Of a stretch of DNA of 64,000 nucleotides, positions 2,328 through 45,571 are shown piece by piece. Source of the stretch: Styela clava (taxonomy: Eukaryota > Chordata > Ascidiacea > Stolidobranchia > Styelidae). The notes under the pieces were generated by a model, which was given only the letters and a program-made list of their open reading frames with translations, was not told where the DNA came from and ran no database searches. Both the position numbers and the translations under genes were made by a program. The DNA is taken from the NCBI RefSeq assembly GCF_964204865.1, contig NC_135259.1, positions 4,154,001 to 4,218,000 of the forward strand, read 5' to 3'. Within the stretch, counting starts at the first letter, position 1, and each line of letters opens with the position of its first letter.

Positions 2328-3011
2328 ATGAACAACTTGATTTTCATTGCAATCGTCTGCTTATTCGCTATGCTGTTTGTGCATAACAGTAACGGAGGTA
2401 AATATTCATTTTGTATTATTAATAATGATTACCAATTTCTATCAAAATTGGTTCAAAAATAATAGCTCATTCCACTTTTGAAATTTGATAATTGTTTTTG
2501 GTATTCATTTAATGTATTGTCTATTTTTCAAAGCGTCTGTGTCAAAGCCAGGAAATGAAGAGGGAACAACCACATCTATGAAAGTTAAAACGGTTGCAAA
2601 ATACGGTTTCGATGTTCTCAAAATCTGCAAAGTATTTTGCAAATGGAATTCTAAGACACAAAAATACAGAGGAAACTGTGACAAGACCAAATTTACAAGT
2701 AAGTAGATTTTTAAAGAATCGGTTTTCAAATGAAAATAACGAAACCAAATTTTCTATTTATTTATTTTATTAAAAATATTTTGGATATAATTTATAATGT
2801 AATTTAAATTACTCGTTAATTGAAGCATCATGAAAATTCTGGTATAACCTCAATTATCGTTTTTTCTTTAGTTCATATAAATAGATTCATAAATTTAGAT
2901 TTTTCCTTTTTATATTTTAAATATTATTACTAACTTTTTTCAGGGGCATGCAATATATGTAGAGATGATATCGGATGCGACAAGATCAATAGTGGTGGAT
3001 TATTTGGCTAG
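2328..3011 (+). CDS. Secreted six-cysteine basic peptide precursor, member A
   Basis: Three exons: 2328-2397, 2534-2698, 2944-3011. They give 100 aa with both introns in phase 1. Exon 1 encodes a hydrophobic signal peptide (MNNLIFIAIVCLFAMLFVHN) that ends at the intron. Exon 2 gives a Thr/Lys-containing spacer and then the first three cysteines (CKVFC, then 12 residues, then C). Exon 3 gives ACNICRDDIGC and ends GGLFG-stop. Cysteine frame: C-x3-C-x12-C-x8-C-x2-C-x5-C; the other four members have x4 in the last interval. The core is rich in Lys/Arg. A C-terminal Gly before the stop is the substrate form for amidation. A possible AATAAA lies far downstream (3836). I do not recognise a named family. 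A secreted antimicrobial, toxin-like or signalling peptide is inferred from architecture only. Confidence 0.85.
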
Positions 3012-3460
3012 GGTTACAAATAGCGACTGCCAGAACAGCGACTGTTAATAGGGCGACCATACGACAGCGATTATTTTAAAACAGGACTATCAATACAGCG
3101 ACTGCAAGACAGCGAATCATTTGAAACAGCGACTGCAACAACAGCGACATCACTGCCTTTATTAAATCCAAGGCTTATGCGCACACACACACATTCCATC
3201 CCCCACACCCTAACTTTGTTTTGTCATTCCTGTACAAAAAGCCTTCATGACATATCATGTCACTTCCTTTTCTTGAAGTTATGAAATCCATTGGGCCAAA
3301 TTTTTCAAACGACCTTAAAATTAATGTGACACGACATAGCGTTACCTTTCAACGACCGACCAGGAAATTCGACTCAGTGAATTCAACTCAATGAACACGA
3401 GTTAAGTCGCTGTTTCAATACGTTCGACATTATGACAGTCGCTGTTTTGACAGTCCGGCC
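3012..3460. repeat. CAGCGACTG-rich repeat element after gene A
   Basis: Directly after the stop codon of gene A, ACAGCGACTG-like decamers recur about eight times between 3020 and 3150. Inverted copies (CAGTCGCTGTT) occur at 3405-3455. A relative lies inverted at about 9405-9455 (GACAGTCGCTATTTGG), so this is a dispersed element with inverted, motif-rich ends rather than a local tandem array. If gene A is transcribed through it, the 3' UTR could fold back on itself. Confidence 0.55.
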
Positions 3461-6230
3461 TGGATACCGGAATATTCTAATTCTATTTTTTTTCCTGCTT
3501 TTATTTCAAAGTTCAATCATACATTAAAATGCGATACATTTAACAGACTTTTCAAAGAAATTCTTCATAACTTTTATAAACGCGGGGTTATTTGAAAACC
3601 TATCTTATATTTTTATTAATGCTATTTATTGTTCATATTTAGGTATTTTATTACAAGAAGTTCAATTCTATTTCATTTTCGAACATTTAAAATGCACATA
3701 TTAGCTATAGCAGACTTTTTTTTTAAATATGTCAGTGTTTTATTTTTATTTTTCTCTTCAATGCAAGTGTTTAATGTTTAATGTTTAATTTAATAAGTAT
3801 TATTTATTTATCCTTAATTTATGTCCTTATGTGATAATAAACTACTATAATTATATCCTATTCAGCCATTTTTTTGATTTCTAATAACAGCACAAGTCTG
3901 ATCAAAGGTGAATTTTTTGACGGAACTGCTGGGGGTGGTTTGCTGTTATTTTACCTACAGTTAAGACAGAACTTCTTAGTGTTCGATTTAAGCTTCCAAC
4001 CGCTGAATGCAGAAATCATGTTTATGATAAGATCATATGTGATGAAATCATCCTAAATACAATACTGCGCTTCATGAGACCTGGCTAGTTACGTAATCAA
4101 ATATGTAAAACATGCGATAATTAGGACAAATGGCTAAACAGCATTTCCTACCGACAGCTTTGACCCTAATTCACGAGTAAAACCCGCAAGTGGGTAATAT
4201 TCTTATCCGGAAGAAGGTGCTCAATTTCAATCTTTGCAAAGTGAAATGTTCAACATGGTAAACGTTCATAGCAATATTCAATACTCGTTACAATGTTTTA
4301 ATACTGTAAATTGGTTCCCTTTACGCTCGATAGAATTGAATATATAGCTTGTCATATTTAATATTCTTCCTAAAATACGGCTAGAAAAATTCCAAAACAC
4401 TGGTGCACATGAAAAAGTGTTAAATACGAAGTGAATTCGAGTGAATATTTTGGGTAAAAACATATAACATCATTCAATTTCATCGTTTAACCCAAGTAAA
4501 TTTTCTTTATTATGCATAATTCAAAACTCTCTATTGTCTATTTACTGGCGGCCCTTCAAAACAACTGTTTAAGATGAATGTTGTTTACCGAGTGATGCGT
4601 TGATAAAATCAACTTGGGCCTCAGTATTGGACGAGAAATATTCGTAAACACGGGGTTAAAGGAGTATAAGTTGTTGAAAGAGATTAGAAAGTAGCCATTT
4701 TTAGAGTATTCGTTACAGCGGATTACAGCGCGAATCGCAGAGCAGAATGCTGGACTAATGTCTATTCTTTTAAAATTCTTCGATTGAAAATTTAATTTGA
4801 TCAAATTTCAATTCAGTAGTTTCAAAGTTTCAAAAAATGTATATGTCCAACTCAACAGGCACTTGACAGACAGTTTGTTTCCAATTATTTTATGAGTAAA
4901 AAGTAAATAGATTGAGTATTTTCATTCTACTTTAGGCACAAGAGAAAAGTTTTGCTATAAACTACGTCAGTTATACTTATCAATCGATTATCAAAACAAT
5001 TTTAGGTTTTCAAACTCACTAATTCAATATCTAGTTCGAGTCACAAATCTCGAGGTCGGAATGGAAATCTTTTTATTTTCAAGCGGCATTTTACCTGTAA
5101 TTAGTGCGATTTTATAAGCTGTTATTTTATAACAAAAGGAAATTAGTTTCATCATCTGCTGGGTTGAAAGACTCAAAGCCAAAATACCTCGACATAATAT
5201 AATACCAAAACTTTGATTGTCATGTCGCATTGGTATATTTACATTGAATTAGGAAAACTGTAATACAATTCCAAGTTAGAGGCATTGTTTATTCAAAAAA
5301 TATTGATAAATATATGTAAAACAACTAATATTTAACAGAAAATAATAGAACTGGACAGAAAAAGGTAGAAGATGATTGACGATGGGGCATTTTGTACACT
5401 CACACATCTTATTTTACTCTTTCATCTCCTAACTCACAAGTTGTACAGAAAAATGATCAAAAATAGAATTTTAGTCTACTAATACTCGAACAAATTGCTA
5501 CCATTTTTAATTCGAAATCGAAAATTTTCGTGACGAAATTCACTACAAAGCTTTTTATTCCGCTTCTTTTTTGTATAAACAAAACAACAATCGTTAAATT
5601 TAAATATTATTTCACATAGTCACATTTAAAAAGGTCTAGTTTTACCAAATAAATTGCAATATATCAAGAAAAAATGTGATGTAAGTTTAACTTATATTTC
5701 AAAGAAAACGCGCCATGTCTGCGTTTGGTAGATAACAGCAACCGATGTTGTAATCTTCAAAATATATTCACACATAAAAAATAATGACGTACGACGCAAC
5801 TGCATTGAAAGAATACAGACCTCATATTAATGCAAATTGCTGAAAGTTGTTGACATCATTTCTAAAATTCTCGTATTCAATTGGTGCATGTCTGGAAAGG
5901 ACATCTGGGTTCAGTTACGTGACTACCAGACATGTGATACCATTGAAATACTGTAAATATATTTCGTTTTTTAAATATTGCTTCACTGTACAAGAGTCCA
6001 AACATTTTAGGGTAGTGCGAAGACTTTTGTTTAAGCTCCGCTCGCTAAAATGTATTTAAAACACGGAAGACACGTTCTCCTTTACTTTTGTTTTGATTGA
6101 ATCCCATACAAAGCGAGAGATAGCAAGAAACGAGAGAAGCCAACGCGCGGATTCTAGTATTTGTTTACGTCATTTCGTCAGTCACTTTAACAAAATCCAT
6201 CCGGCCTGAAAAGTACCGATTAGAACGGAC
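3461..6230. other. Intergenic region between peptide genes A and B
   Basis: AT-rich, with no exon or RNA gene that I can support. The short open frames here have no signal peptide, cysteine pattern or splice partners. AATAAA at 3836-3841 is the nearest clear polyadenylation signal for gene A, 825 bases past its stop. Confidence 0.55.
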
Positions 6231-6239
6231 TATAAAAAG
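6231..6239 (+). promoter_or_regulatory. TATA box of peptide gene B
   Basis: TATAAAAAG lies 138 bp upstream of the ATG at 6369 and is the best TATA match near any member of the family. The spacing matches that of gene A. Confidence 0.6.
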
Positions 6240-6368
6240 AGATACACCTCCTTGAAACACATTATTTATAAAAATTCTCGTAAATTGAAATAAAGCGGAC
6301 AATCTGCTAAGTTTATGTTAAATATTTGTTTCTATTGAAGCCTGCAGGAGATATTAATTCACTTTGAA

Positions 6369-7448
6369 ATGGGAAAATTTGTTGTTGTTCTCGCCGCGTT
6401 CGTGGCTATGGTGTTAATAACTGAAAATGTGAATGCAGGTAAGATATAATACCAAAGCATTATTTTACTGACTGTTATCTATTTAGGTAAATGTTGGTCA
6501 GCAAATATTTATTATCGCTGTAATTGATAAAAAAGGCAAAAAAGTGTTTGAAATTTTTATTATCGTTCTATAGCTAATCTCAGTATTATTCTGAAATGAA
6601 ACCTATTTTTTATATGCAGAATGTTTGATATTCTATAATTCTGCTTTTGATCTTAAAAAGTTTTGGATGTTAATACTCAATCTAGAAATCAGCAAAAGAA
6701 TATGTTTTAAAATATTATATTATATACAATACACATTTTATTTTGAGCTTAACCAAAATTTAGATAAAGTCACAAGGAATTGCAAAAACAATTATTTTCA
6801 AAATATAAGTTTTTGTTAATAATCAATATTCATTATTTTCAACAAATCATTCATATTTTTTGTTATAATTCAGTGTCCATATCAAGAGAAAGACGCTCAG
6901 CTAGACGAATTGTATCTCGCACGACAACGATGACCGTTCGATGCCAACGATTTTGTACGTACAGTCAAATCACTGGAAAACTCAACCGAATCTGCATAGT
7001 AAAGCGAACAAAAGGTATAGTCTTGCGTTTGTAATCTAAGCTGAATTTATTGCAAAATTATAAATACAAAACGGAAAATCTGGTGTTTGCCGATGGTCCT
7101 ATATTTAAAAAACGAAAAAGTTTTAAAGAGTTGTAGAGTTGAATTACTTTTACCCATGTTTTCCGTTTAGAACGCTATAATCGGTGAAAAACATTCTCGA
7201 CAAAACCATGTGAATTTGATAAATATTATATTTAATAGTTTCCGCGTTTGGATCAGTACAGTAAGCGCATTCTATAACATACGGTTATATCATTTTTCAA
7301 ATACAATTTTTTTGTTATGCCTACGTTTACATAGCTTATATATCTTTTCATTATCCAAATAATAAACACGTATTTTTACATTACAGCACTCTGTAAAGCA
7401 TGTCGGCGTTATGCATGTCCGTATATGTCCAGTTCAATTGTTGGATGA
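6369..7448 (+). CDS. Secreted six-cysteine basic peptide precursor, member B
   Basis: Exons 6369-6438, 6874-7014, 7387-7448; 90 aa, both introns phase 1. The signal peptide (MGKFVVVLAAFVAMVLI) ends in ENVNA at the first intron. After it comes a very arginine-rich spacer (SRERRSARRIVSR), then CQRFC, 12 residues, C, 8 residues, and CKACRRYAC. The protein ends SSSIVG, again with a terminal glycine. This is the most basic member and lacks the W-N pair that follows the second cysteine in the other four (CTYSQ here against CxWN). AATAAA lies at 7905-7910. Same gene plan and orientation as A, C, D and E. Arg-rich stretches of this kind are common in membrane-active peptides or as dibasic processing sites. 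Function not recognised. Confidence 0.85.
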
Positions 7449-10400
7449 AGAAGAGCTGAAGATGAGAACGTTTGTTAAGAACGACACAAACGAACATAGT
7501 TTAGTTCGATAACAGAATATTGCTGCTCAAATCAATGCTAAGATGTTTCGATATTTTTACCCTTTTAAATACATAGTTGCAGGGAATAATATATATTTTC
7601 GTAAAAAGTTGTTTTTGTATGCATATCGATGATTTGAGTTGCTATACACATCGGTATCTACAGTTGAAGTTCTTTGAAACGAAGGGAAAATAATTTGTTA
7701 CGTCATTGACAGCCATGAGACGTCCAAGGGTCAAGTTAAATTGGAATGATTTTCTAAGCTTCTCATTTTCCATCCTACCTATTTGTGCTTTTATATTTTT
7801 ATTTTGTACTTTATTGTGATGAAAGTTCCAATGATACATGTTTACCTTGTTTCTTCATTATCTATTTTTTTTAAATTTTCTACGTTTTCAAATCTTTTTC
7901 GTTTAATAAATCTCGTTGATTTATAAATGTACAATTTTAAATGCACGATTAACAAAAGAATGGTAGTTCCACTCAGTACTTAGACATGATATAGCGTTTT
8001 GTATTACAATAGGATCATTATGCGGGCTAACACAATGAAAGGTCAGATAAGTAGCCTACTTTCAGTTAGATTCGCTTCATGTGGTCTTCACAAAGTATGC
8101 GATTCGTAATCTCATGGCGAGAAGGAATGCGGAAATTATATAGTCAACAATGTGGATGCGGCACTACTTGCTAATAAACCGAATTTGGTTTATTTTGTAC
8201 TTTTTCGTTTGCCGTAGTATAAGCCACTTGCCTGCTTAACTTAATTTAAATCACAAACAAAACACTTTTGTCACTTATCCGATCCCGTGCATGAACAGCA
8301 TAAACGTCGCATGTTTGATAAAACTTTAACCACAAGTAACAACTAAATCTCGCAATATCAAATTTCTGACGACGGACATCTGAAAATAACGAAATGGTTC
8401 TACCGTTCGTATTATCTATTGTGAAAGAATATATTCGAGAGAATAAGAAACTGATAATTGGATTAACCTTATCTTATTCGAAATACTCAAAATGCATGAA
8501 TAGGTTCAGTAATTCAAGAAAAAAGATGAGTCAACTAGTTGATACTTGCTGGAACACTTTTTAGAAGCAGGCCTATTCAACGCAAAAACTAGAAGCCAAA
8601 TTCGTAAAGTTTTTATTCGCACACCTAAACATACTTAAATTTTTAAACGACTTATTAAATTTAATAGCATAGGCCATAGAGTAATATCATTTGTCATCAA
8701 GTTATAATGTTTACCAAAAGTGGTGACGTATATATCTTAAAGATATTACTGAATTTACTGAGTTTACTGAATTTAAACTCATGATATGGTCCGGTACATA
8801 GGTTCGTACTTTAAAATTGTTCCTCAAGTCACAAATCATAAAATTGAAGAAGTTTGGTATTAGTCCCTATGTACAACATTTAAGACGTAATTGATTTTGG
8901 AAGTCATTTATTTACATTGTGTCTTTCTTTGGCATTACATTACTTTTTGTATGACTGTAACTTTCAATAGCTATAAGTAATATATTTGCAAACAACGTGA
9001 ACTAAACAATACATCAACCATAGTGGCCAGTTAATGACTGTTTACTTCCGTACAGATCATTGAAATAAAGGATTTAAAATGAAGAAAACTCTGATTTTTA
9101 CCTAATTTCTGATTTTGTTATTTTCCTTTTATGCCAAATATACTTCTCGTGTCTTTTTCTAGTGAATACCATGTTATTTTGTTTAGAGAATGTTTGAAAT
9201 GGTTGTTCACCGTCGAAGTGGGTAGACAAACAAGCAATAAACAAACAGTAATTGAGTCATGAGTACCCCACTTGACATCGTTAATAAGGGATAGTATTCA
9301 CGGCGTACTTCCTTGGTAGTTTACGTGCAGGTTCATTTTAGAAAAAAGTCGTCTCAAAAACCAAAACGAACATAATTAACCATGCCTCTAATTAACCGCT
9401 GGTAAATGAATCGCTGTCGTGTAGTCGCTCTATTGACAGTCGCTATTTGGAACCCGAGCCCTTTTAACAACAGTTAACAAAGTTAATTTATGTGCTGCTG
9501 GCTGCATTGATATATGACTTACATCCACGACCGAATTATGTGTGAGGTTATGAATTAACTAACCATGTAGTTACATATATATTTAAACTCTAGTTTTACA
9601 CGTTTCTATGCTGAAATTTACCAGGCAACGAAAAATAGAAACTTGAGGAGGTATCTGGAAGTATGACATATTTGAAAGCAAATTTGGTTTTCGAACAATA
9701 AATAAACGATAACAAGAATTCGGAACTATTCTCCTAAAATATCTTCACGATAATGAGATGAAAATCCCCGTCTTTAAAATCTGACGGAATGTACTTTTGA
9801 TAGTGTTTGATGAATAAATACGTAAATACATTACAACATAGTAAACAGACAACGTTGATATCATGCATGAAACGGTGACTGAGATATCGTAATTCAATTG
9901 GTTGTTTATATTTTATAAGTACTGCGTTTTAAAAGTAACTCGAACCATTGGAATATATTTCTTCAATCACTGTTTGTCCCTTGAAATAGCATTGGGAATG
10001 AGTCACCAGTAGCCTATCGGTTTAAGATAACTTTATTCCCAAAATAGTAGGACATGATTTTGTCTAGTTTATTACACGGAAGTTTCATTTAATTAAACCG
10101 TCTAATCCAAGATGAACCGAAAAATATACCTGTCGAATTAAATCATGTTGAGATAAAACACAATGGGATTAAAATATCTTCTTCAAACATGTCCTCTTTT
10201 TAAACCTGCTCATTATATTGTCAGAAAGTGAAGCATAAAATGTGGGAAAACAAGAAATGTTTTGCAAAATCACAGTTTTGTTAAATCCTTTTGACATCGC
10301 CGGTTTCGAAGTATTACAAGTAATCCTAAATACTCATTCCTAAACGTATCATTCTGCACCTATCGAATGTAATTTCAAATGATAAAGTGGAGGCTAGTTT

Positions 10401-11974: not shown

Positions 11975-12817
11975 ATGCATTTGGCACAGTTATTTTTCGT
12001 GTTTGCAACATGTATGCCCATAATCAACGTCTTGGGTTCAGGTGAGTAACAACATTTCGATCATCAGTTTCAATCTTGAAAAAAAATTAAATAAAAAAAT
12101 AAAAGTAAATAATCTATTAATATCAGAAATATTTAGATAGATACACAACGGTAAGATTGTAATGTAAAATTGCACAGCAGTGTAGAGAAGGTTATATATC
12201 TGTCCAATTGATTTTTAGGTGAATTTGAAATTGACGTAACAGGAGTGTCCAATGACAACATTGACATGTTGAATATAACATTCAAAGAAACTTTGAAATC
12301 ACCACCAGCTGACAATATGCTTACAGCACTGACGGGCAGGACAATGCAAGTGTGCAATTATTATTGCCGATGGAATGCAAAGAAGAATAAATATTACAAA
12401 AAATGTTCACGCATGTCAAAGAAAGGTATATAGCATTGTATAAAGATAAATCCTATTTATTCTCCGATTCCAGAAATAGTATGATACACGGGCAGAGAAA
12501 TACTCTGTTGGTTTCAGTTAACAAATGGAAACAAATTTTACTAATGGAAGTAGTGCTGACATTTCAATTAGCTATGAAATAGTTCTTGAATAGTTTTCAA
12601 ATTATTGGCTTGCTTAGCTATGTTTTCCTAGTGTTCGATTTTTTTTTATTTTGTTCATAAAGCTGATTTTTGCCAATGTTAAAATGTATAAAAGTTTTTA
12701 TGTTCCAAACTATAACACTTCGATCCGTATTCAAATCAACAATTTCTTTTTTTCAATACAGGGTTTTGCAAGTTTTGTCGAAAAACTATATGCAATTCAG
12801 GAGCAATAATCTCATAG
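11975..12817 (+). CDS. Secreted six-cysteine basic peptide precursor, member C
   Basis: Exons 11975-12041, 12219-12425, 12762-12817; 109 aa, introns phase 1. The signal peptide begins MHLAQLFFVFATCMP. Exon 2 carries a long, acidic-to-neutral pro-like spacer (GEFEIDVTGVSNDN, then LTALTGR) before CNYYC-RWNAKKNKYYKK-C. Exon 3 gives CKFCRKTIC and ends SGAIIS with no terminal Gly. Cysteine spacing is x3, x12, x8, x2, x4. The contrast between an anionic spacer and a strongly cationic core is typical of secreted cationic peptide precursors. Two AATAAA signals lie at 12834 and 12864, so the 3' UTR is very short. No recognised family. Confidence 0.85.
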
Positions 12818-14808: not shown

Positions 14809-14848
<40 letters not shown>

Positions 14849-20800: not shown

Positions 20801-21256
20801 TTAGGTGATTACGAGGTTTTATGGAGGGTACTTCCCAGAGTTAAATTGCTTCTTCCGTTCAGATCATCTATCAAGTTTTATTCATTAATAAAAGATTGTC
20901 AGGTGTAATAGAAATGAGATAAATTTAGTTTATTCGTGTAATTATGTCATTGGACATACCGCTGTAGTAGCCGAATTAGCTTAGAAATTAATTTTGGTTA
21001 GAAGTACCATTATTGTAACTTTTAAAACCAAGCGAAACTGCGAGTTGAACAAATGTGTCAACTTTTTAGATTTATCGGCTAAAAGTAAATAATCTGGTTG
21101 ATATTTTGAAAAATAAGAGGGAAACACACGTAAATAGGCAGTTATATTCAATAAATTTTATATCGGTTGGGTATACCAATAAATTAAGTCTAAATTCTCA
21201 AGTTAACAATGTATTTGTTTTGCAGATTAGTAATTTAAAATTGTTTGATCTTGAAA
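12818..21256. other. Long intergenic region between peptide genes C and D
   Basis: About 8.4 kb of AT-rich DNA. It holds a (TA)n microsatellite near 14811-14843 and a shorter one near 14972-14985. I see no coding exon with a plausible splice partner, no tRNA or rRNA and no clear transposon ends. A lost or highly diverged family member could be missed by eye. Confidence 0.5.
14811..14843. repeat. (TA)n microsatellite
   Basis: Uninterrupted alternating T and A over about 33 bases. Confidence 0.9.
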
Positions 21257-22426
21257 ATGAACTTCGGTATAATCGCCTTTGGCACATTATTTGCCGTTGT
21301 GGTCATGACCGTATCAAAGCCTTCGACAGCAGGTAAGTTCCATAGCATGACATCATAACATATAATACAATTTCGGCACAAAAACAAACGTGAGGCCACC
21401 CAGTTTAATACTTATAGCTTTGGTCACAAATGAATTATAATTTTTTGATTCAACCGACTTGTCAAAGCAACGTAAAGGATTAGCGACTTCTTTGACAACG
21501 CAACAAAATTTGAATAGTTTAAGCAAACTGTAATCTAACTTTCTGTTTCTGTGTGTTTGTCAATTTATCACCTAATGTTTTCACAGATTCCTCAGTACCC
21601 CGCATTTTATAGATTCGTTCGACTCGTCATATAATTATAAATGATTATGCATGCAGTGTAATACTCTAATAACTGATCAACCGTCCAACTTTACACAATG
21701 AATATATTGTTTTTGTGTACACCACCTTCCTGTAAATGTTTTAAACTTCATTCAAGATTTTTACCATAGCCGAAAACTATTCTGTGTGTTTCTTTATCCT
21801 GTGTTGTGTGATTCAAAGTTTTCAAAATAAAGTATTGTATTGTATGTAACATATATATATATCAAAAATATTTGAATTCAGAAATATAAAAATTAAGGAT
21901 AAATCAGCAAATTTAGAATGCATATATGGTGACTATGAATATATATACAGTTTAGTATTTTATTTTTAATATACCAAATCACCAATCGGAGTCGTATACA
22001 TATATGCACAAAGTACGTGTGATAGGCTACTACTCCATTTATTCATTATTCAAACTCGGTCCTAATTTCCAACAATTTTGTAAGCAAAACTTAATGTATT
22101 GAAACTTATTTATCATTTCAGCATCTGTCGCAGCATTGAGCAAAGATAGATTCAATGACACTATTCCGATAAACTCCACCACAACTACCACCGTTGCACC
22201 AGTGAAGTTAACAACGAATACTATTCCGCTGAACTCCACCCCGACTACCACCGTTGCATCAGTGAAGCCCAAATCTAAATTCAAGCGAGTCATCTACTGC
22301 CAAAACTATTGCGAATGGAATCACTTCAGAGGAAGATATTTGGGGAAATGCGTCAATAAAAGAAATAAATATCATTGCCATGTTTGTCGGAAAAAGGGAT
22401 GTAAAAAGTTTTTGGTTCTCGGATAA
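21257..22426 (+). CDS. Secreted six-cysteine peptide precursor, member D, with Thr-rich linker
   Basis: Two exons: 21257-21332 and 22122-22426; 126 aa. The signal peptide (MNFGIIAFGTLFAVVVM) ends KPSTA at a phase-1 intron. Unlike A, B, C and E, the last four cysteines follow the first two without an intron: the second intron is absent. The spacer is an imperfect duplicated unit containing NDTIPINSTTTTTVAPVK and then NTIPLNSTPTTTVASVK, with Asn-Ser-Thr sequons and many Thr/Pro, so it is probably glycosylated and mucin-like. Core: CQNYC-EWNHFRGRYLGK-C-x8-CHVCRKKGC, ending FLVLG-stop (terminal Gly). AATAAA at 22516. Core residues EWNH and YLG are shared with member E, so D and E are the closest pair. 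Confidence 0.87.
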
Positions 22427-28000: not shown

Positions 28001-31000
28001 CAAACTAGTCCTTTGACTTTAGTCATACCTTCATCTTTATTGTCAGAATACTTATTTATTACCATTTTTATGCTATTCACAAAAGTAGTCTAAAATGCAC
28101 ATTATGCTTTTTGATCTTGTGTGATTTGTGTTTGAAAATACATTGAATTGAATATGATTTAATGACCGAATTCTAAAAGCTCCGTACTCAACAGAGTCTC
28201 ACAAAATTAATGCCATCTTCTCTCGAAACATTAACAACTTCATGTTAGTTGCTTTTTTTACAACATAAATACTCTACTAAGTAAAGTTTACTTTTCATCA
28301 TTGTTTGCATAGTTATGTACAGCCATATTTTGAATTTTAGTGTTACATTATACATTTCTGTATCTTGTAATCGTCTTCTCGGTGAAGGAAAGAATGGAAT
28401 GATAAATCCGACTGATCTAAAGAAAATGTTTACGTTGACAAAAGCTGAAATTGTAACGCTCAACTCAGATGCATACAACACTTTTCTTGACTTGTGTCTA
28501 CTTCATGAATTGGCAAAGGTATGATATACAGTATGAAGGTAGTAACTAAAGTAACCTAGATTATAAATAGGACGATACTGTTTGCAGTTATTTTATATTT
28601 CCATTGCCCTCCTATTTTCTGATTTAGAATGTATCATTATATATTTGAAACAAAATATGACTATTGTATTTGAGGCTGATCCAATCTTAGATCATTTTTA
28701 CCTTGTAGTATGTATTGTGTTACTTCATGGCATTGTAATTTTTATTTTAAACCAGGATTTTATAAGTCGAAGTTCTTTTATTGTTCAAATAAATAAGTTA
28801 TTTTTTTTATCTTGACAGTCTCTGCCTGAAGATTCTCAGAGAAGTACTGAAGCACTGTATTCTGCAAATGAAATCATAAACATTTTAGTTAAATCTAAAT
28901 TTTCTGAGCAGGTATGTAATATACAGACTTACTATTTACAACTTAAATTATAAAATAATTTAGCATATTAAATATAGCAGTGGCTCTCAAGCGGTGGGGC
29001 ATGCCCCTAAAGGGGGGTGTAGACAATTTTTTGAGGGGGTGTGAAGCTAATTAAAAATAAAAATATTTGTTAGATTTGATCTTGCCTGCCCTATTTTGAA
29101 TATTTACATTGCTGTATTTTAGATATTTAAGCTCCATACACACGTATCACCATCTGTTATGCATAGCTCATTGTTAGATAGTTATTTTTGAGGTGGGGTG
29201 CGAGACTTGACACCGAAAAAAGGGCTTAAAAGTTTGAGAACCACTGACATATTGCATGTAACATTATGTTTAGCCACTGCACTCTTTCCACTAAGATCCA
29301 TTTTACGCAGCCTTGCTGCATCATTCTTATGATGAAAAATGTATTCAAATTACATATCAACTAAAGATTAATTTTTCTGCAATCGTCATTTTTGGTTTCT
29401 CCATTTACGCTTACCGTATATAAATTTTGATGATTCCTTTCCAACATCAGGGGTACACGAATGCTAGAGATATATCGAAAAAGTTTTTCACCACAAAGAC
29501 AAGAGATGGAGAACACATTGTTCATGCTATGGGACATTGCCACATTGATTCTGGTATGCATAAAGACCATTTTTACCTCTAATATGAAAATTTTATATCA
29601 TCTAAGCTAAAACCAACGAAACTAGAAGTATTATATCCAATTTAACCTCCATGCCCACCACTACCTCTCCTATAGTGCAATAGATTGAATTAAAAGAAAT
29701 TCTTCTCATAATAAAGTTTTTTTAGTGCTGAGAAATTTGATATTACTTTATTTTAATATGTATATCTTTATTATGTAATCTTCTTTTCACATTAATTCAG
29801 CATGGTTATGGCCATACTCTGAAACCATTCATAAATGTGCAAGGAGTTGGATATCAACACTCACTCTCATGGATAAGTTTCCTGATTTTACATTTGTTTG
29901 CTCTCAGGTAAAATTTTCTCGTATGGAAATTTGCTCAAAGCAAGGTTACGTATACTCACTTAGAATAGAAGGGGACTAATCCCTGAGCCGAGTTAGGTGG
30001 AGCCATGGAAGCCGTTATGTAAGAAATATTGTTGTCAATCCTAACATTAGGTCTAATGTATTTTGCATTACTATTCTTAAAGATTCTTGTTATCGATGTT
30101 CTTTCATTGCTCCAGATTTTTATAATTATCCTTGTGGCAGAGGAAAGCCTAATCATATGTTGAGTCATATGTTGCCTCGGCGGTATGGCGCATCGTGCTA
30201 AGCGTTAGGAATACGCACACCACCGCATCCCTGATTACCCTTTTGGGGTTCGCAGGTTCCCATGTGGGGATGATCATGTGCGAGATTTGATGGACTCCTC
30301 GCCGCCGTAGGGTGGTTCACGTAAACGCTGGTCGGTTACGGCTTCCTCCACCATCAAGTCCATGCTTCCGAAATCAAATAACTGGCTAACTAATCCCCTA
30401 CCCGACCTGGACTGGTAACCGGACAAGAGGCTGTGGTTCGCCATATGATTAAGCCGTCTTATTGGCTATCCTCTCCCCCGGGGTAAATATGTAAATCCTA
30501 TCCTAGTTCTATAACTTCTTATCTGGTTACTAGTCCATGTCGGGTATGGGAATAGTTTACCAGTTATTTGTTCCAGATGTGTGGATTTATTAAGATAGAA
30601 TAGAAGATATGATAGAAACCATATCTGACCAGCACTTGCTTGAGCCTTCCTATGTCTTTTCGCATATAATTGAATCCCACAGCATTCCAACCTGTGCGGG
30701 ATAATCAGAGGTGCGGTAACAAGCAGGTTTTTAACAATTCGCAAAAATTCGCACAATGTGCCAAATGCTGAAATAGCAATATCTGCTCTATTAGATACAT
30801 TTTTTTGTTTGGCCAGGCACAACAGTTTGAATGGGTAAAAGAAAATTATCCTGAAATCTACAAGAAATTGAAAATTTATGTCAAAGAAGGAAGATTTATT
30901 CCTGTAGGAGGAACATGGATAGAAATGGTAGATAGTAATTTTTTTATAAAATTATTGTCAATAATCCTAAAAAGCCCAGAATATTATTTTCATGTTCCAA

Positions 31001-34000
31001 ATATCTGTTTGCACAAACCTGCATAACAATTTAGCAAATATTTAGATATCAGATTGTGTTGTGCAATTGTCTACTGAGAAACATATACAATGAAACACCA
31101 ATACACTACCATCTACTGCCAATATTTTCATGTCTATATCAGGGGTGTGTAACCTTTAATACAGTAGGTGAGACCCGGGCCGCACCTCTATTAAACATAG
31201 ACTTTCTAGTAGTTGCAGACACGACAATTTTTGGCTATTGATCTTGTGACATGCGTTGTTCACTCCGCACAAGCTAAGTGTTAGAGGGAATTGTAACATC
31301 ATATGCATAGATAATAAATTGAACTCGGGTATAGGCTTTGCAACGCAAATGGATTGGAATTACCAGAATGTACCAGATTAAACTAAATTAAAAACTCATT
31401 CCGTAGGCTGCACACCATTTAAAATTGGCACTTCTTTTTCAGCACTATTTTTTTTGTGGGCCGCATTTGGCCCGCGGGCCACAAGTTGCACAACCCTAGT
31501 CTATATTATGCTAGCAAAATGTATTCTTCATAGGATGGAAACATTCCAAGTGGAGAATCTATGATTAGACAATTTGTGTTTGGACAAAGATTTTTCCTCG
31601 AGGAATTTGGTATAACTTGCAAAGAATTCTGGTTGCCAGATACATTTGGATATTCTGCTAATCTTCCACAAATAATGAATGAAGCAGGAATACATAATTT
31701 TTTGACTCAGAAATTATCATGGAACTTGGTCAACACTTTTCCTGTAAGTATGTTTTAGTTAAAAAACATTAGGACCTAGGAGTCTTCATGGCAAATGATT
31801 CAAAGCTGAAACTCTTGTTATGGTCAAATCATACAAGAATTGCAACTCATGAAGTGTATTTCCTTGACGAGTTAACACTGGGTTGCTGTAGGACCCACTT
31901 ACTCGCCCACACCGTGTTTTACTATCGCTGAATGTGTCGTAGTTTTCCCTAGTACTACGTACCCTAGTACAATGCTCATAGATTCATTGTTAACTTGGGA
32001 ACAATTTCTCTTCCAACTTTTGGAAATATTAGGAATACCTACTTTTATAATCCTATACTGTTTTGATTGAGCCATGACCAGGTATTTTAGACAACTATAC
32101 TACATTACTATAATCAATAATAGCTAACATTTTCACTACAACATTTTTTCCAGCATAACACATTTCACTGGGAAGGAATCGATGGTTCAAGGTATTATTC
32201 AATTATAAAGAAAAATTGCATGTTCTTGGGTACTTGATTAGCTTTGAAAACTACCAAGATATGAGAATGTGTGTGTTTTGATGGCTGTGACTGTTGTAAC
32301 TGCAAAATAAAATGTACTTGATTAGCTTTGAAAAAATACCAAGACATGAGAATGCGTGTGTCAATGGGATGCATAGTAATTAACAATAACCAACACGTGG
32401 TAATCAGTGACCATAGTCAGTGAGTCAAATTTTGACAGATTATGTATTATGCCCCATTGAATCTGGTTTAATTTGTTGGCTTGAGATAGTGATAAATAAG
32501 TTTGGACATTTCAGTTTTATGATTCTCCTTTTTTCTCAGAGTGATTTGCCACTTTCCACCCGGTGACAGTTATGGAATGCATGTAAAGCCAGAAGAGGTA
32601 ATACTGAAACTTTCACCATTATAGCAAACTTCTTTGGGAACAGTTTTGGTTTTGTCATAGTAATAAATATACATATATTCTGAGTAGTTTTTGAAAATGA
32701 GTCTGGCTGTATTAAACAAAGTACAAATGAAATCATCTTCTCTCCAATCATGAAAGATGTCATTTATTAAACATGGAATGATAAATGCATGTCGTAATTG
32801 TTTTGGTAGAGCCAGCAAATTTTCAAGTTAGTCCAGCTTAAATTATTACTAAAGTGATGGTACTCCTCTGAAGTATGTGAACTAAGATGGCAGACACTGG
32901 AGCGTAGTGTGTGTACCAGGTTAGGGTTAGGCCATAATTTCAGGTACAAATACTACGGAAGTCACGTGGGTAGTCCCCGAACTAGTAATAGAACTAAAAT
33001 AAGGAAATTTGGGATAAAATTAATGCCTAACCCTAACCAGGCACATAATACAGTCAAGTGTCCGCGATCTTGGTTCACATACTTCGGGAGTACCAAAGTG
33101 ATTATAAATAACAGAGATTATACAAACTGCCATTCTCGAAGGAATCTAAGCACTGAATCTTATTTCTAGCTCATTGGTAGGAACACTCGCTATCACATTG
33201 TTGATAGTCAAGTCTGTGGGGATTGCTGTACTTCTCGCCATCATAGGGTAATACGCAGAACTGCTGTGTGGTTATGACTGGTAAATGGATGAAGGACAAT
33301 TGCATACCATATAATTAGAATTTGATATTGACTTCTCTCTATCCTAGAATAAAAATGAGCTTATTGTCCTTAATAGCAATTTATTTTTGCAGTTGTTGAA
33401 AACAATGAGTAATCACAAAGACAAAGGAAGATCTGACACTTCGGTTTTCTTGTTTGGTTTTGGAGATGGTGGTGGAGGCCCGACGTTAGTAGTATTTAGA
33501 CTGTTTATTGTAATATACTTTGTACCTGTTCACATTCACCTTATCATAGCCTACGATATATATATATATATATACCGAACGTCCTTTATATCTTTCATTT
33601 TACCTAGGTACATCGTTTACCTACGTATTTATCTTAACAGAAAGCATATAATTTTTATTTTTGTCTATTCATGAATGTAAATAAGACATCTTTACCATAA
33701 GGCGAAACACAGCATTTATTCGGTTACCCGGTATGACTGTTAATTAAAGGAACCTTTACTTAGTAATTCATTTAAAATGCATAGAATTGATTGAAAAAAG
33801 TATAACTTCTTATCACATAATTATTCACTACAGCATTCAAACCTGTGAATCTGTTATTTTTTTGTAACAGGAAATATCAAAATACAGCAGGGTATAACAT
33901 TTTCATAACCCATTCTATAACTATGTGTATAACAATAGGGAAGGCATGCTTCATCGATTGTCACGTATGAGTAATTGTGCTGGACTTCCGAAAGTCAAAA

Positions 34001-37000
34001 TGTCGACTCCGGATCAGTTCTTTGCTGACGTTGTCAAAACACAAGATAAACTTTGTACATGGGTTGGTGAATTATTTCTAGAACTTCACAATGGAACTTA
34101 TACAACACAAGCAAAAGTATGTTTCTATTCGTTTAATAGCTTAAATCCTCAAACTGCGATAAGATTTTTTCATTTATCTCGATGTGAAGGGCAGTCAACA
34201 TTTCCTTTTTCATGGGCTTTGATGGTAAAATAAGATTTTTTCAACTCTGCTGTCGGAGTGGAGGAAGTTGTATCCTAGTGACTAGCTAATACCGCCAATG
34301 GTGAAGAGTCCAGCAATTCATTTGCCCCACATTATTCCACACTGGACTTGAACCTGTGAGTTGATTACGGTGGTGAAATTGCAAGTATGTTCACAAAGCT
34401 CATCACAATGCTCCAAACTGTCAATGCATGGTTGCAAATGAATTGTAGAAGCTACATTTACAATAGGAATTTTAATGAGTAAGCTTATTGTACATGTATG
34501 TTATTGCAGGTTTGTATAAATTTTTTTCAATTCTTGCTGGTTCATGTGGCTGATTATAAAGAACACTTGTCAAGAACAATTTTTTTTTTCAAGTAACTCA
34601 CATGATGTGGCTAACAACGCACACATTTGTCTTTTATAGGAAGAAAGTAGTGAAATAATTTTTCCAACCAGCAGATATTTTTAAAATTAAGATCAAGAAG
34701 TTCAATCGAAAATGTGAAATTCTTCTACACAATATTGAATTCATGTGGACTCTTGCTGAATCTCAGAAGAAAAAAGATTTTCCGCCATATCCTCGACAAG
34801 AAATTGATAGACTGTGGAAGTTACTTTTATTAAATCAATTTCATGATGTTTTGCCCGGAAGCTCAATTGAACTGGTATGAAGAGTATTGCATTAAATCAT
34901 TTAATACTCTTTATCAGCTCTTTATCAAACTTTTTTTGCCCCGGAACTCCTATGCTTTTCTTTCATCTTGCCTAAAATTGATGGACGGCTTCCAAAAAAT
35001 TTAGTCTATGGTAATATTAAAAAGGTTGCTGTAAACATGAAAATTAAAAGATTTGGGTGACGTTATTAAACGGTTAACGAAAACTCCATGCTTTTTTGAC
35101 TGAGGCCTGTCCGCCTGTTCAGGTAGCAAGACCTGTTTGCTTTTTTGTCGCCAGTTGGGAAACAAATTCACGACCCAGAGTCGTCAAATTATGACTGAGA
35201 AGGCCATAGTGACCAATTTAGTCGCAATTTCGATCCCTGTCCCGCGGAACACGTCGAAGAAGCTAACGGAACAGCAGTGTTCGGCAGAATAGGATTCCCA
35301 TATTCATCCCCCACAGAGAGAAAAGACTTATAAGACCTCTGAAACATACCATAGTCTGCCATCCAGTTACGAGTCTGTGTTGTGTTGTGTATGGGAATAA
35401 TTACCCAAGTATTCGTTGTAGATGCATGGACTTGATGGTGAAGGAAAGCCATAACGAACCGGTAGTTAGGATAGGATTTACATATTTATCCTGGGGGAGA
35501 GGAAAGCCGATAAGACGGCTTATCCATATGGCGAACCACGTCCTCTCGTCCGGTTAGCATTCCAAGTCGGGTATGGGATTAGTTATATTGTTTGTTTTCA
35601 GAAGCATGGACTTGGTGGTGGAGGAAGCCGTAACCGACCAGCGGTTACGTGAACCACCCAACGACGGCGAGGAGTCCAGCAATCCTCTCGCACATAACCA
35701 TCCCTGCATGGGATTCGAACCTGCGAACCTAGCAGAGTAATTAGAGGTGCGGTGGCGAGCGTATTCCTAACGCTTAGTTCGTTGAGCCACACCGCCGTGC
35801 ATAAGTTACATAATCAACATAACCAACTTGTGGCGATGAGGAATCCAGCAATCCTCTCACAAATAATCCACCTAATCTTGAGTGTTTTCAAACATTTAGC
35901 ACTGTACATCCACTGTTGCCCTATTAGGTTCATGAGAATTAATGATAAGTATTGGTAATGGATTTGAAACTGATAATTTCTTTGAGTGGTATGACTCTAC
36001 TGGAGCCTATATACACCACTCTATCGATAGCTGATGATGATATATATTTTTCAAACTTGAAACTGTGTTTTATCATTGCAGGTTAACCAGGACGCTTGCA
36101 AGTATTATGAGGATATCATGAAAAGTGGTGAAATCTTAATAAATACAGCCAATAAATCATTAATAAAACATACAAAGAACAAAACTGAGTTTTCTTTTTT
36201 GAATTCTTTGTCCTGGGATAGAAAAGAAGTTGTGGAGCTGCCTGATAAATCCCTTTGTAAGTTGATGTTCATATTATCTATATCTTGGTATATGGTGCAA
36301 AAGATTTGTATGCCGTAATAGAGTGGTGAAATGAATTTCTTCATGTGCACTGACAGTCAGAAAATTATTCCAACGTCTTTATTGCCATTGAAGGACTAGT
36401 AATTTTTAGAACTAACTATTAGGATATAATTTTATATATATCCCGGGGGAGATGAGAAGTCAGCTTATACGTATGGCGCACCACAGCCACTTGTCCGGTT
36501 ACCAGTCCATGTCAGGTCTAGGAATAGTTAATCAGATGTTTCGGATATATGGACCCGTTGGTAGGGGAAGCAATAAACGACCTGTGGTTATGTGAACTTC
36601 ATTGCGACAGCAATGAGTCTAGCAATCCCCTCTCAGAATATCATACATAATCTCCCTCCCCCAGGATTTAAACCCAAGTGGGGCAATCAGAGATACGATG
36701 GCAATTGCATCCACAATGCTTAGCACGATGCGCCAACAGTCTAGCATTTGCACAGATTTTGAGAATTAGTTAATAAAATTTATGTAAAGTGCGTATTTTC
36801 CCATCTTAAGATGGATGTATGTGTCATAAAATAGTTAACTATTTAATCCACTACCTTCTATGAATATTTTCACTTTTCATTTCAGCTTTTATCTTCTGTC
36901 CTAGTTTGAGTATGACATCTATTCATATCTGTGAAACAGATCCAGTCATTGTGGAACCGCAGGTAATTTATTAAACTGTATTGAAAAAAGGAACAAAGTT

Positions 37001-40000
37001 TAAAAATGTGGACTTTTGAATTGAAATTCATATGCAATTTTTAGATGTAAGCTCCGTAAAATGAAGTATGATATTAATTTTCACACTTTTCCATTTCAAC
37101 TGGTATTAATCTTACTTACGGTATATTGCCATTCATTTCTCTTTGTAAAATAAGTCAATAGTTAAGTTGCAATACCATAGCTTAATTGGATTTACAGACT
37201 GCTTAACCATATGGCGAACCACAGCCTCTTGTCCGGTTACCATTCCATGTCAGGTGTGGAATTATTTAGTTATTTGTTTTCGGAAGCATGGACTTTAAAA
37301 CAAATAATTGATTAACTATTCCCATAACTGACAAGACTAACAGGGCAAGAGGCTCCTAACAGGGTAAATCCTAGGGATGAGCATTGTTTTCAATCATTCA
37401 TTCAGAAAAATGGTATGATATCATTACGGAACAGCAAGCTCAGATGTACTTTTGATAATGGTGGTCGATTAGTCAGTTTACAATTGAACAATGCAGAAGG
37501 TAGCAAGGAATTGATAAAGTCTTCTCACTTTGGAAATCAATTGGTTTTATTTGATGATGTTCCATTGTTTTGGGATGCATGGGATGTTATGGATTATCAT
37601 CTAGAAACAAGGTAATTCTATAATTTTCTGCATGTATAGATAGATTAATACAAGAGCAGACCTGATATCCTATATACTACGCGACAATTGCAAGGGTCAA
37701 GTGTGAAACTGTTAGCTTAACCATGTGTAATAACAGATCAGACTTAATTTGAAATGTTTTGCTGAATAACCATGCGTATTACATAGTCAAATCCATGCAT
37801 CTTAAACACAGAATTGGTGACTATTCCCACACCTGACATGTACTGGTAACCATAGAAAAGGCTGCGGTACACTTAACGGGATTCACTGGGATGAATAAGA
37901 AAATTTTATTCATTTGGTATATGTATACAGTGTGTCCAAACAATTTCACCCAGTTTCATAGTAATAACAATTGTAAGTTTAACTAAATTTTATTGTATGA
38001 TAAATGAGAACTACAAGCACAATAGGAACTATTAATAAACGAAGGCAAAGATATTATTACCGTTTTATAAATTTGGGTGAAAATTTTTGGACCTGATGTA
38101 TATTCCTTGTAATAAGGAAAAACTATGCTGTGAAGAAGAGTAGTTGCAATTTAGTTCTTCATATGTTCAAGTCAAACAATGTTGCATGGCAATCAATATT
38201 CACATGATTATTATATCCGATACATTTTTGATTCATGAACATTCTTACATGCTTTTAATATATAACAAACATACCTGCCGGCATCAACAAAGTTTGGGGC
38301 CATTTTCAATAAAAAAATGAATTACAGGTCACCTGTACTTGATGTTATTGAACCACTACATGTAAGTGAAAAATCATGTGAACTGCGTGGAATTCTAGAA
38401 TTTTCTGTACGAATTGGCGACAATAGCAAATTGAAACAAACTATAGAACTGGATGCTGATTCTCCTGTCATCAGGTTTAAGACATTTGTAAGTATCAAGA
38501 TATTTTATTATACTTGGTCAGATGGCAAACTATCCCTTTTTGGTTGATTGGTCATTAATGGAGGTAACAAGTTGCAAACGCTTGATGGAGGATTCTTGGG
38601 GAGGCAACTGACTATCAATCGAGTTAACCATCTAGTGACGGAAAGAGTACAGCGATATTTTTGCCCATTTCTATCCCTAACAGAGTTCAAACCTGTCTCA
38701 TTGGACGGGTATCAGTTGTGCAATGACAAGTATTTATTTTGGTATTGAGATATTATGCTCGTTCAAGTTTTCCAGAGAGAAGTTGAAGATGCTTATTAAT
38801 TACATTGTTTCTCCTACACTGGTCATGTTATATACATATTCAGCAATTTGATGTCATTTCCAATTTTTGAAGTGTCTATTTGGCCTAAATATATATCACA
38901 TCTTTGATGGAAGCAACAATTTGAAAACTATCGAACGCAACCATTTTTCATTCGTATAATATTTTGCAATTATAGGTTGACTGGCAAGAAAATCATAAAT
39001 TTTTGAAGGTTGAATTTCCATGGAATATTCATTCTACAAAAGCAACTCACGAAGTACAATTTGGACATTTGGAACGACCAAACCATCAAAATACTTCTTG
39101 GGATAGTGCCCGGTATTTTAGTTTGTCTATCATTGAATTAGAAGTGTCTTTACTTCATAGAACCTGGAGAATAACAATTATGTTTCTCTATTTCACATGT
39201 TTATGATGAGGTGTTCTCATGCCTTCACTTTTGACAAGGTGCTACAAGAGCAGTCACTGATTCGGAAGGAGTTACTATTGAAGCTGGTTTTTTTTCATTA
39301 GTAGGTTATGTGGTAGGAATAGACTATGATTCGGATATCTTTCACCTGTTATGTCAACTTACTTAGGTCCAACACTCATTCTACGAAGACACGATTCTCA
39401 AACCTAAAAGCCTACTTAGTGGTTTTCTTGGGATTGCAAGCAAAGGTGTTTACTAAGAAGGAATTGTGATGACCACATTAAATAAAAGTTAATGAGCTGT
39501 GAATTGTTTAATGATATAAACATAATGCACCTTTTTACTTTAGTTTTTTGTCTTTTGTTTTAAATGTCTTGAATAAAACAACTGATCAAACCTGTTATAA
39601 ACAAAATTAGGTTTTTTGTTATCAAAGACACCATGGTGTGTTGGTAATCTTAAGAAAGTTTAGAAACCACTGCACTAGCCCATTGCTGCTACCATTTATT
39701 TAATGATGTGTTTACTTATTTTTATCAGGTTTGAAGTTTGGGCTCACAAATGGGCAGATTTATCAGAATATAATTGTGGTGTTGCAATACTCAATGATTG
39801 TAAATATGGATATTCAACGTTTGGAAGTACCATGAGATTATCACTGTAAGTGTAATATGTTGAATATGTTGGGAATACAATTATTTGTTTAGTGTCAATC
39901 TACCTTGTTTTAGAAAACGTAGACTTTGTATTGTTTTCACAGATTGAGGTCGCCAAAAGCACCTGATGATAATGCAGATATGGGTGAACATGAATTTACA

Positions 40001-43106: not shown

Positions 43107-43109
43107 TCT

Positions 43110-43604
43110 AGTCTATGGCATGCCTACCAAATAACGTAGTACTGATAGATCCCAGCCTAAATAGTAGCTCATTTTGTATCAGTGACTGCTCTTGCAGGAC
43201 CTTGACAAGAGTGAAGACATGAAAACGCCTCATCATAAACAGGTGAAATATAATTACTATTCTCCATGTTCCATAAAGGACAGACACTTCTAATTCAAAT
43301 TTAGTCAAGGAAAAATACCGGGCACTATCCCATGAAGTGTTTCGATGGTTTGGCCGTTCCAGATGTCCAAATTGTACGTCGTAAGTTGCTTGGGCAGAAT
43401 GAATATTCCATGGAATTTCAACCTTCAAAACTTCAATGATTTTCTTGCTAGTCAACCTAAAATTGCAAAATATTATACAAAATGAAAAATTGTTGCGTTC
43501 AGTAGTTTTCAAATTGTTGCTTTCATCGAAGATATGATATATATTTTGGCCAAATACACACTTCAAAAATTGGAAATGACATTAAAAACTGAATATGTGC
43601 GAAT
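43110..43604 (-). pseudogene. Inverted duplicate of MAN2C1 exon 20 with flanking intron
   Basis: The minus strand matches 38827-39331 of the MAN2C1 gene across the end of intron 19, all of exon 20 and the start of intron 20. The match includes the splice sites, so it is a DNA-level copy and not a retrocopy. The conserved text [19 protein letters not shown] is readable, but the start of the exon has two in-frame stops: the Trp codon of VDW has become TAG and a Lys codon has become TGA. No neighbouring exons are copied. It cannot encode a mannosidase. It could only matter as a source of antisense or inverted-repeat RNA if the 25-44 kb region were transcribed through. Confidence 0.88.
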
Positions 43605-43959
43605 AACAATTATTTATGTTTTTACAAACTCGTAGATTGTGTAACAAGGTACATTACCGGTACCTTCCCACCTCGATATGGAAGATTAATTAAGGTGTTA
43701 AACGCTTTCGCAAAAACAGGCCTACGTTACATGAACTCTAAACATATTATATCCAAGCAGCAAGTATTGCTTTGTGCAGTTTGAGTCATAAAAACAACTG
43801 GATAGTAGTAAACCTCGCTTGAAACTAGGCCTAACATAAACAGTTATATATAGTCGAATATACCCATTTGCACTTGATTTCGTAAGTCATATTCAAATAA
43901 TGCTTTACTTTAAAATAACCCCAATGTCAGAATAAGCACCATCTGTTGTGGGCGCAATA

Positions 43960-43991
43960 TTTATATATATATATATATATATATACATATA
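43960..43991. repeat. (TA)n microsatellite
   Basis: Run of alternating T and A with one interruption, upstream of peptide gene E. Confidence 0.85.
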
Positions 43992-44395
43992 TGATTGGAA
44001 TATAAAACTGTCATAAGTAGAAGTCGTTGTGTGGTATGAGATTTGTTGATCTTTGAAAAGCAAATTAGTTCAAGAATTTGATCATACTATTTTAGTTTCG
44101 AGCCATAGACTTTTTGCTCAAACTACCCTATTTGAAGTGCAGCACAACACAGCTAATGAGTGGAAAGACTAGAAACAAGTTTCATATTATTATAGACTTC
44201 CACATGCTACCGTTTCAATACCGTTGTACCCTCAGGTCAGATAAGGTTAAGTTGATTGTCTATTTACGATTGGGGAACGTGAAAAAATACTTGGATTTCA
44301 CAAAGAAGGCCTGTGATCTGTGAATGTTTCATGAATACCTAACTATACGTTTTTTATGTTTTAATGCAGTAATCTTGAAATTATATATTTATACC

Positions 44396-45571
44396 ATGGG
44401 AATATTCTTCAAACTCTTGCTGCTAACAACAGTGTTGTCACTTACGCTAGAATTAGAACATACCAGTGCAGGTAAGTGAAATTTTTTACATCGGTGTTTG
44501 TTGCGGTATTAGACGAAAATATTGAAATTTTAATGCGCGACTATCAATGCTTGTGTAGATTTATTTTCTATTAAAATTATTATCTTGCTTGTTAGAATAA
44601 TTCTTTATAAAGACATATTTCATTTAAAAAATCTCGAATAATGAAATTAAATTGGAAGAAATTACATACGACTCACTTCTTTAACTACGGACAAATGGCC
44701 CATTGGGCGATAAAAACTACTTATTACTCAACGTGTTCTCTTGTTGTCGTATTAGTTATAACCATTGAATTGTTGGATTATGATGTTCAAGGAGTGCAGG
44801 ACTAAGTCTCATGTTTCATCAATCAAACTGGTTGGCACGTTAAACGTAGCTTACTTCGCACCCGATAGTGACGAGGGGTTATAGCACACAATATTATATC
44901 CATTTCATGGTATCCTTTCTTACATTTTATCTCCATATTGGAAGCCGACTTATATCTTTTATTTTAATTGCAGCTTTAATACAGAAGAACCATAACAAAA
45001 CATCGATTGCAAAAAAGTTCAAAAAACAAGTAAAAATAGTTTTGAATTGTACTAAATACTGTGAATGGAATCATTTCATCCAGGGATACTTAGGAAGATG
45101 CAAGTTTAAAGACAATAAAAGTAAAAAAAAATGTCAATACAACAAATTTTAAAAATGAGATACTCAGTGCATCAAATGAAAAAAAAAGGTTTATCAAATA
45201 GAAAAACTTTATTATACGATTTTCTAAGATTCCATCTATGTTTACTTGAATATTTTTATATATAATAAAACTTTGAATTCAAATTTAATGCGTTTTCTTA
45301 ACCGAGATCGATGTAATATTTTTGACTTTTTCATATGAAAGATGAGCAAGGCGTCCTAATCATCGAGTTATTAAGTAATGTCCAAAAATTGCAATGTGAC
45401 AATCCACTTAGTTTTGAATATTTAAAAAAATTCATTAATTCCTTTGCAGAATTATGTAAATTTTGTCGAAGACTTGGATGCAAGTCAGGAACTATACTTG
45501 GTGACGAATCATGGACAGATGATGACGAATTTTTACTTTATCAAATTAACATTCTGCATAAATTTACTTAA
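44396..45571 (+). CDS. Secreted six-cysteine peptide precursor, member E, with acidic tail
   Basis: Exons 44396-44471, 44974-45120, 45450-45571; 114 aa, introns phase 1. The signal peptide (MGIFFKLLLLTTVLSLTL) ends EHTSA at the intron. A lysine-rich spacer (KKFKKQVK) leads to CTKYC-EWNHFIQGYLGR-C, 8 residues, and CKFCRRLGC. Unlike its relatives, the frame continues after KSGTILG for another 22 residues with the acidic motif DESWTDDDEF. A Gly followed by an anionic C-terminal extension recalls ascidian styelin/clavanin precursors, where the tail is removed and the Gly amidated. That is analogy, not homology. The exon 2 donor (GTAAAA) is weak; read-through would give a tail ending KKKCQYNKF, a possible alternative form. 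AATAAA at 45591. It is separated from the A-D cluster by MAN2C1. Confidence 0.85.

Follow-up and report, generated by a model that had tools for sequence, protein, structure and literature searches.

A cluster of five divergent genes for six-cysteine basic peptides, candidate host-defence peptides, in the ascidian Styela clava

Results and discussion

In a 64,000-base stretch of the genome of the ascidian Styela clava (assembly GCF_964204865.1, contig NC_135259.1, positions 4,154,001 to 4,218,000; hereafter the window, with positions counted from its first base) we found five genes, A to E, all on the plus strand between 2328 and 45571, that share a gene structure, a cysteine frame, a basic charge and, in four of the five, a glycine in the tail. 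The comparisons described below strongly indicate that the five genes are a real paralogous family of six-cysteine basic peptides with signal-peptide-like first exons, and we lean, by analogy, towards the view that the products of the cluster are secreted, cationic host-defence (antimicrobial) peptides locked by disulfides.

Gene models

We searched the six-frame translation of the window, which has a guanine plus cytosine content of 33%, for the six-cysteine frame and rebuilt the genes from the DNA. An initial annotation had proposed five spliced models, each with a signal peptide, a spacer and a core; all five were recovered, and the start at 2328 and the end at 45571 agreed. Every product comprises a signal peptide, called by eye and by hydropathy, a variable spacer and a basic core with six cysteines, and the proteins have 100 (A), 90 (B), 109 (C), 126 (D) and 114 (E) residues. 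The nine introns are without exception GT-AG and phase 1. Intron 1 sits close to where the signal peptide ends, while intron 2 of A, B, C and E lies within the eight-residue loop of the core, dividing it into Cys1-Cys3 on one exon and Cys4-Cys6 on the next. Gene D is the exception: it lacks intron 2, carries the complete core in one exon (22298-22402) and needs no join within it. The exons are the following (a slash marks the donor junction; each first exon was also a match of the exon-1 scan described below).

Gene A exon 1, 2328..2397, plus strand: signal peptide, donor GAG/GTAAAT
Gene A exon 2, 2534..2698, plus strand: spacer and Cys1-Cys3 (CKVFCKWN...C)
Gene A exon 3, 2944..3011, plus strand: Cys4-Cys6, tail ...SGGLFG, stop
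Gene B exon 1, 6369..6438, plus strand: signal peptide, donor CAG/GTAAGA
Gene B exon 2, 6874..7014, plus strand: spacer and Cys1-Cys3
Gene B exon 3, 7387..7448, plus strand: Cys4-Cys6, tail ...SSSIVG, stop
Gene C exon 1, 11975..12041, plus strand: signal peptide, donor CAG/GTGAGT
Gene C exon 2, 12219..12425, plus strand: spacer (net charge -3) and Cys1-Cys3
Gene C exon 3, 12762..12817, plus strand: Cys4-Cys6, tail NSGAIIS (terminal Gly absent), stop
Gene D exon 1, 21257..21332, plus strand: signal peptide, donor CAG/GTAAGT
Gene D exon 2, 22122..22426, plus strand: Thr-rich spacer, entire six-cysteine core, tail KKFLVLG, stop
Gene E exon 1, 44396..44471, plus strand: signal peptide, donor CAG/GTAAGT
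Gene E exon 2, 44974..45120, plus strand: basic spacer and Cys1-Cys3
Gene E exon 3, 45450..45571, plus strand: Cys4-Cys6, ...SGTILG, acidic extension (DESWTDDDEF...), stop

Without reference to cysteines, both strands were scanned for signal-peptide-like first exons, defined by an ATG, a run of hydrophobic residues and a phase-1 donor in which no fewer than 7 of the 9 consensus bases matched. The scan gave six matches on the plus strand and none on the minus strand, and five of the six were exactly the first exons of A to E; its criteria were chosen after the models were known and are thus uniform, not blind. Within the Thr-rich spacer of gene D, positions 22160-22267 (plus strand) hold an imperfect direct repeat of 48 bases, 90% identical and with starts 60 bases apart, which lengthens the spacer.

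A constrained cysteine frame

The cores follow the frame C-x3-C-x12-C-x8-C-x2-C-x4(5)-C, in which the x3, x12, x8 and x2 loops are exact in all five members and the last loop, Cys5-Cys6, has four residues in four members and five in A. The exact x12 and x8 spacing that had been claimed was confirmed in 5/5 from the segment lengths, and the reported W-N in four of five was borne out as C-x-W-N at the second cysteine of A, C, D and E, where B has C-x-Y-S. Net charges of the cores are +6 (A), +9 (B), +12 (C), +8 (D) and +7 (E). According to a column listing, the conserved positions other than cysteine are an aromatic residue (F or Y) before Cys2 (5/5), W and N after it (each 4/5), K or R (4/5) and then Y (4/5), G two positions before Cys3 (3/5), and an R after Cys5 that is invariant among the five.

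As a control for chance, the window was shuffled 100 times under a first-order Markov model. Without splicing, the full frame is present once, in gene D, and in none of the shuffles, and C-x3-C-x-W-N-x9-C occurs four times, again against zero in each shuffle. The bare C-x3-C-x12-C, with 8 occurrences against a shuffle mean of 1.8 and a maximum of 5, is weak evidence alone; in view of these numbers the extra sites at 10207, 14694 and 15535 (minus) were taken as chance, and they are absent among the listed matches (to E of about 5) of the N-half profile described below.

Homology of the five genes

Homology was assessed by shuffling residues while keeping the cysteines fixed. In the segment from Cys1 to Cys5, which needs no gaps, the ten pairs together have 54 identities outside the cysteines against a shuffle mean of 22.2 (standard deviation 4.2), and 0 of 5000 shuffles reached 54. 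When each member was compared with the other four, the fraction of its own Cys1-Cys5 shuffles that did as well was 0.0084 for A, 0.0068 for B, 0.0002 for C and 0/5000 for both D and E. When the tails were added, in an alignment arranged manually on the basis of a MAFFT one and with E ended after its Gly, there were 89 identities against a mean of 29.0 (0/5000), and nine of the ten pairs lay below 0.05, the tenth, B-C, being at 0.0505. Furthermore, we searched 2963 open reading frames (ORFs) with leave-one-out profiles of each half of the core. The N-half profile ranked A, C, D and E first and B 52nd (E 16), and the C-half profile ranked B, C and E first, D second (E 0.049, behind an unrelated ORF at 0.047) and A 11th (E 4.2), so that every member was ranked first by at least one half-core profile. 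Because the half-profiles fail for B (N-half) and for A (C-half), these two are remote members and the most divergent of the five, although both still resemble the rest in the shuffle comparison. A sixth member is not claimed, since the best matches beyond A to E, among those listed, had E values of 0.29 (N-half) and 0.74 (C-half).

At the nucleotide level, BLAST comparison of the loci with their flanks (1.5 kb upstream, 0.8 kb downstream) gave no match between loci at E<=0.01, and the best match under a looser limit joined exon 3 of C and E over 45 bases (76%, E 0.012). Synonymous divergence (dS) of the cores was 0.71-1.86, or undefined in four of the ten pairs, and for this reason we make no claim on the ratio of non-synonymous to synonymous change (dN/dS). 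On the same two grounds, the lack of nucleotide matches and the high or undefined dS, the duplications that gave rise to A to E are judged to be old, and the shared frame must therefore have outlasted a long divergence. This agrees with the earlier proposal that the frame is kept while the sequence diverges, the x3, x12, x8 and x2 loops being unchanged in 5/5 despite the age of the duplications.

C-terminal tails

After Cys6 the products read DKINSGGLFG-stop (A), PYMSSSIVG-stop (B), NSGAIIS-stop (C) and KKFLVLG-stop (D), while E continues with KSGTILG, then DESWTDDDEFLLYQINILHKFT-stop. Four of the five thus have two hydrophobic residues followed by Gly at the same place, as the last residues in A, B and D and before the acidic extension in E. 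A C-terminal Gly is the usual substrate of C-terminal amidation, and the tail Gly of A, B, D and E suggests that these peptides would be amidated. The acidic run of E recalls the clavanin and styelin precursors of ascidians, in which an acidic extension follows the peptide. Immediately past the stop codon of gene B, its reading frame continues into an acidic stretch, RRAEDEN (7449-7469, plus strand), either a possible relic of an E-like extension or chance.

Database searches and structure models

All five members were scanned against Pfam, where four families were listed and no match exceeded its curated cut-off. New_glue on D had an E value of 7.9e-05, but its 22.8 bits fell short of the cut-off of 31 and it covered residues 11-82, that is the signal and the Thr-rich spacer, outside the core; the remaining Pfam matches had E values of 0.035, 0.1 and 2.1. 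NCBIfam gave one match for the five members (E 0.069), and PDB sequences gave no acceptable match, a Snaclec match at E 1.4 being rejected. No relative of D was found in prokaryote genome contigs and viral contigs, which is expected for an animal gene and bears little on it. The initial annotation had stated that no named family has this frame; this is uncontradicted by Pfam, NCBIfam and PDB, but it passed over the turgencins, which are named peptides and come near to this frame.

Structure prediction had also been proposed, and two AlphaFold2 predictions of the contiguous core of D, made from shallow alignments, both placed a beta-hairpin within residues 15-30, in the Cys2-Cys3 loop, while the second alone had a short helix at 39-44, all at low confidence. 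Mean predicted local distance difference test scores were 52.5 and 50.8, too weak for a fold search. The long Cys2-Cys3 loop is thus perhaps a beta-hairpin in the models.

Comparison with turgencins and other known peptides

The closest named peptides that we found are the turgencins. According to the parts of their description on which we draw (PMC7024374), turgencins A and B come from the ascidian Synoicum turgens, are basic, have six non-adjacent cysteines and an amidated C-terminus, and are proven antibacterial peptides with minimal inhibitory concentrations down to 0.4 uM; the disulfides 1-6/2-5/3-4 were established by nuclear magnetic resonance on turgencin B. Counted from the printed sequences in the same source, the loops are x3-x4-x8-x2-x3 in turgencin A and x3-x4-x7-x2-x3 in turgencin B (PMC7024374). 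As far as this description goes, the C-x3-C start, the x2 loop, the x8 loop of turgencin A, the absence of adjacent cysteines, the basic charge and the short tail after Cys6 all recur in A to E, and amidation, proven in turgencins, is predicted in the present family. In contrast, the Cys2-Cys3 loop has 4 residues in turgencins and 12 in A to E, the Cys5-Cys6 loop 3 against 4-5, and turgencin B has x7 in place of x8; C-x-W-N is absent from turgencins, and the motifs CXMAC and KKXGG, given for turgencins in the parts considered, are absent from all five cores.

Other ascidian antimicrobial peptide precursors, those of clavanins and styelins, resemble gene E in their succession of signal, basic peptide, Gly and acidic extension; to our knowledge these peptides are without a six-cysteine core. 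Alpha- and beta-defensins likewise are basic and have six cysteines, and three disulfides would be expected in A to E as well, but the adjacent cysteine pair of the defensin spacing is absent from A to E, and none of the four Pfam families listed for A to E is a defensin family. In the sections of the turgencin report used here, the mature clavanins and styelins are classed as alpha-helical, and the disulfide pattern of alpha- and beta-defensins is described as unlike that of turgencins (PMC7024374).

Possible functions

From layout and analogy we infer the expression, secretion, processing, amidation, disulfide pairing and activity that a host-defence function would involve. The signal peptide encoded by exon 1 would be removed, and the divergent spacer would be cleaved off or retained as a pro-piece. 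The core would then fold with three disulfides, possibly paired 1-6/2-5/3-4 as in turgencins, and the tail Gly would be converted into a C-terminal amide, directly in A, B and D and after loss of the acidic extension in E. The basic peptide could finally bind and disturb microbial membranes. The features of the antimicrobial class found here are the signal-like exon 1 and the basic core; a killing activity is presumed. Host defence had already been the guess of the initial annotation, and it is still the best one by analogy, with indirect support from the tail Gly, the acidic extension of E and the partial likeness to turgencins.

Several points weigh against it. Gene C has no tail Gly, and the extension of E has no dibasic site directly after its Gly. 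When the loop residues of the turgencins were scored against the family and against shuffles, the scores summed over the five genes were not significant (fraction of shuffles that did as well 0.074 for turgencin A, 0.274 for turgencin B); turgencins A and B compared with each other by the same loop test gave 0.0055. Turgencin B is described as helix-prone in the part of the report drawn on (PMC7024374), whereas the weak models of D contain a beta-hairpin. Moreover, a basic amidated peptide could equally be a hormone. Given the different lengths of loops 2 and 5, and loop residues that do not score clearly above shuffles, we hold with moderate confidence, by analogy, that A to E work like turgencins, not that they are turgencins.

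The hormone alternative would make A to E secreted signals of a hormone, neuropeptide or cytokine-like kind, whose conserved C-x-W-N ... Y-x-G-x-C loop and amide would bind a receptor. The terminal Gly of A, B and D and the partly conserved W-N and Y-x-G loop would fit such a ligand, and hormones too occur as clustered paralogues; we nevertheless regard signalling as rather improbable, because the high basic charge and the divergence of most loop positions among the five are more in keeping with effectors than with ligands of conserved receptors. Descent from a true turgencin ancestor with subsequent enlargement of the Cys2-Cys3 loop, a special case of host defence, seems unlikely. The shared cysteine arrangement (x3 and x2 as in both turgencins, x8 as in turgencin A), the short tail and the amidation, proven in turgencins and predicted here, argue for it, as does the comparison of turgencin A with gene A alone, at 0.016 the best of ten single turgencin-gene comparisons (0.016 to 0.82); loop 2 with 12 residues in place of 4, loop 5 with 4-5 in place of 3 and the summed scores argue against it, and in the sections considered the authors had no turgencin complementary DNA for comparison (PMC7024374). 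A role as deterrents, venom-like peptides or inhibitors of proteases or channels, directed at predators or competitors and not at microbes, is quite unlikely. The small disulfide-rich frame, the signal-spacer-core layout and the divergence, common to such peptides generally, speak for it; against it, neither PDB sequences nor Pfam families gave a significant match.

Surroundings in the window

Between peptide genes D and E the plus strand carries exons of a GH38 alpha-mannosidase (30772-39203), probably of the MAN2C1/Ams1 type.

30772-31023, plus strand: GH38N (Pfam)
33898-34233, plus strand: GH38N match below the cut-off (E 0.00029), matching Ams1 and other alpha-mannosidases in PDB
34659-34877, plus strand: GH38 middle domain (Pfam)
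37328-37612 and 38976-39203, plus strand: GH38C (Pfam)

The GH38 exon at 38834-39320 (plus strand) has an inverted copy at 43120-43598 (minus strand), 84% identical in 489 aligned bases, with 45 of 59 residues identical in a stretch picked by hand; the inverted copy is possibly a fragment of a gene. Downstream of gene E, 47716-48473 contains six 58-base direct repeats with starts 83-296 bases apart, and 49774-56161 and 56624-64000 are the arms, roughly 6.4 and 7.4 kb long, of a large inverted repeat in pieces 76-91% identical. Both arms carry hydrophobic, membrane-protein-like open frames, none of which, among the six tested, reached a Pfam cut-off.

Significance

The cluster provides complete models of five genes for a six-cysteine scaffold that is constrained while its loops vary freely. 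As a tentative possibility, A to E might form an undescribed animal family of amidated, disulfide-locked host-defence peptides that has a cysteine frame of its own and a Cys2-Cys3 hairpin and shares a distant common ancestor with turgencins; they would then supply the gene organisation that, according to the turgencin authors, is required to place their peptides. These authors, in the part of their report used here, considered that the relation of turgencins to other peptides will be fully revealed only once the genes are characterised (PMC7024374), and genes A to E are a candidate comparison for this. If the peptides are antimicrobial, they would add a scaffold, and the tail Gly would give four of the five a mature form that can be tested.

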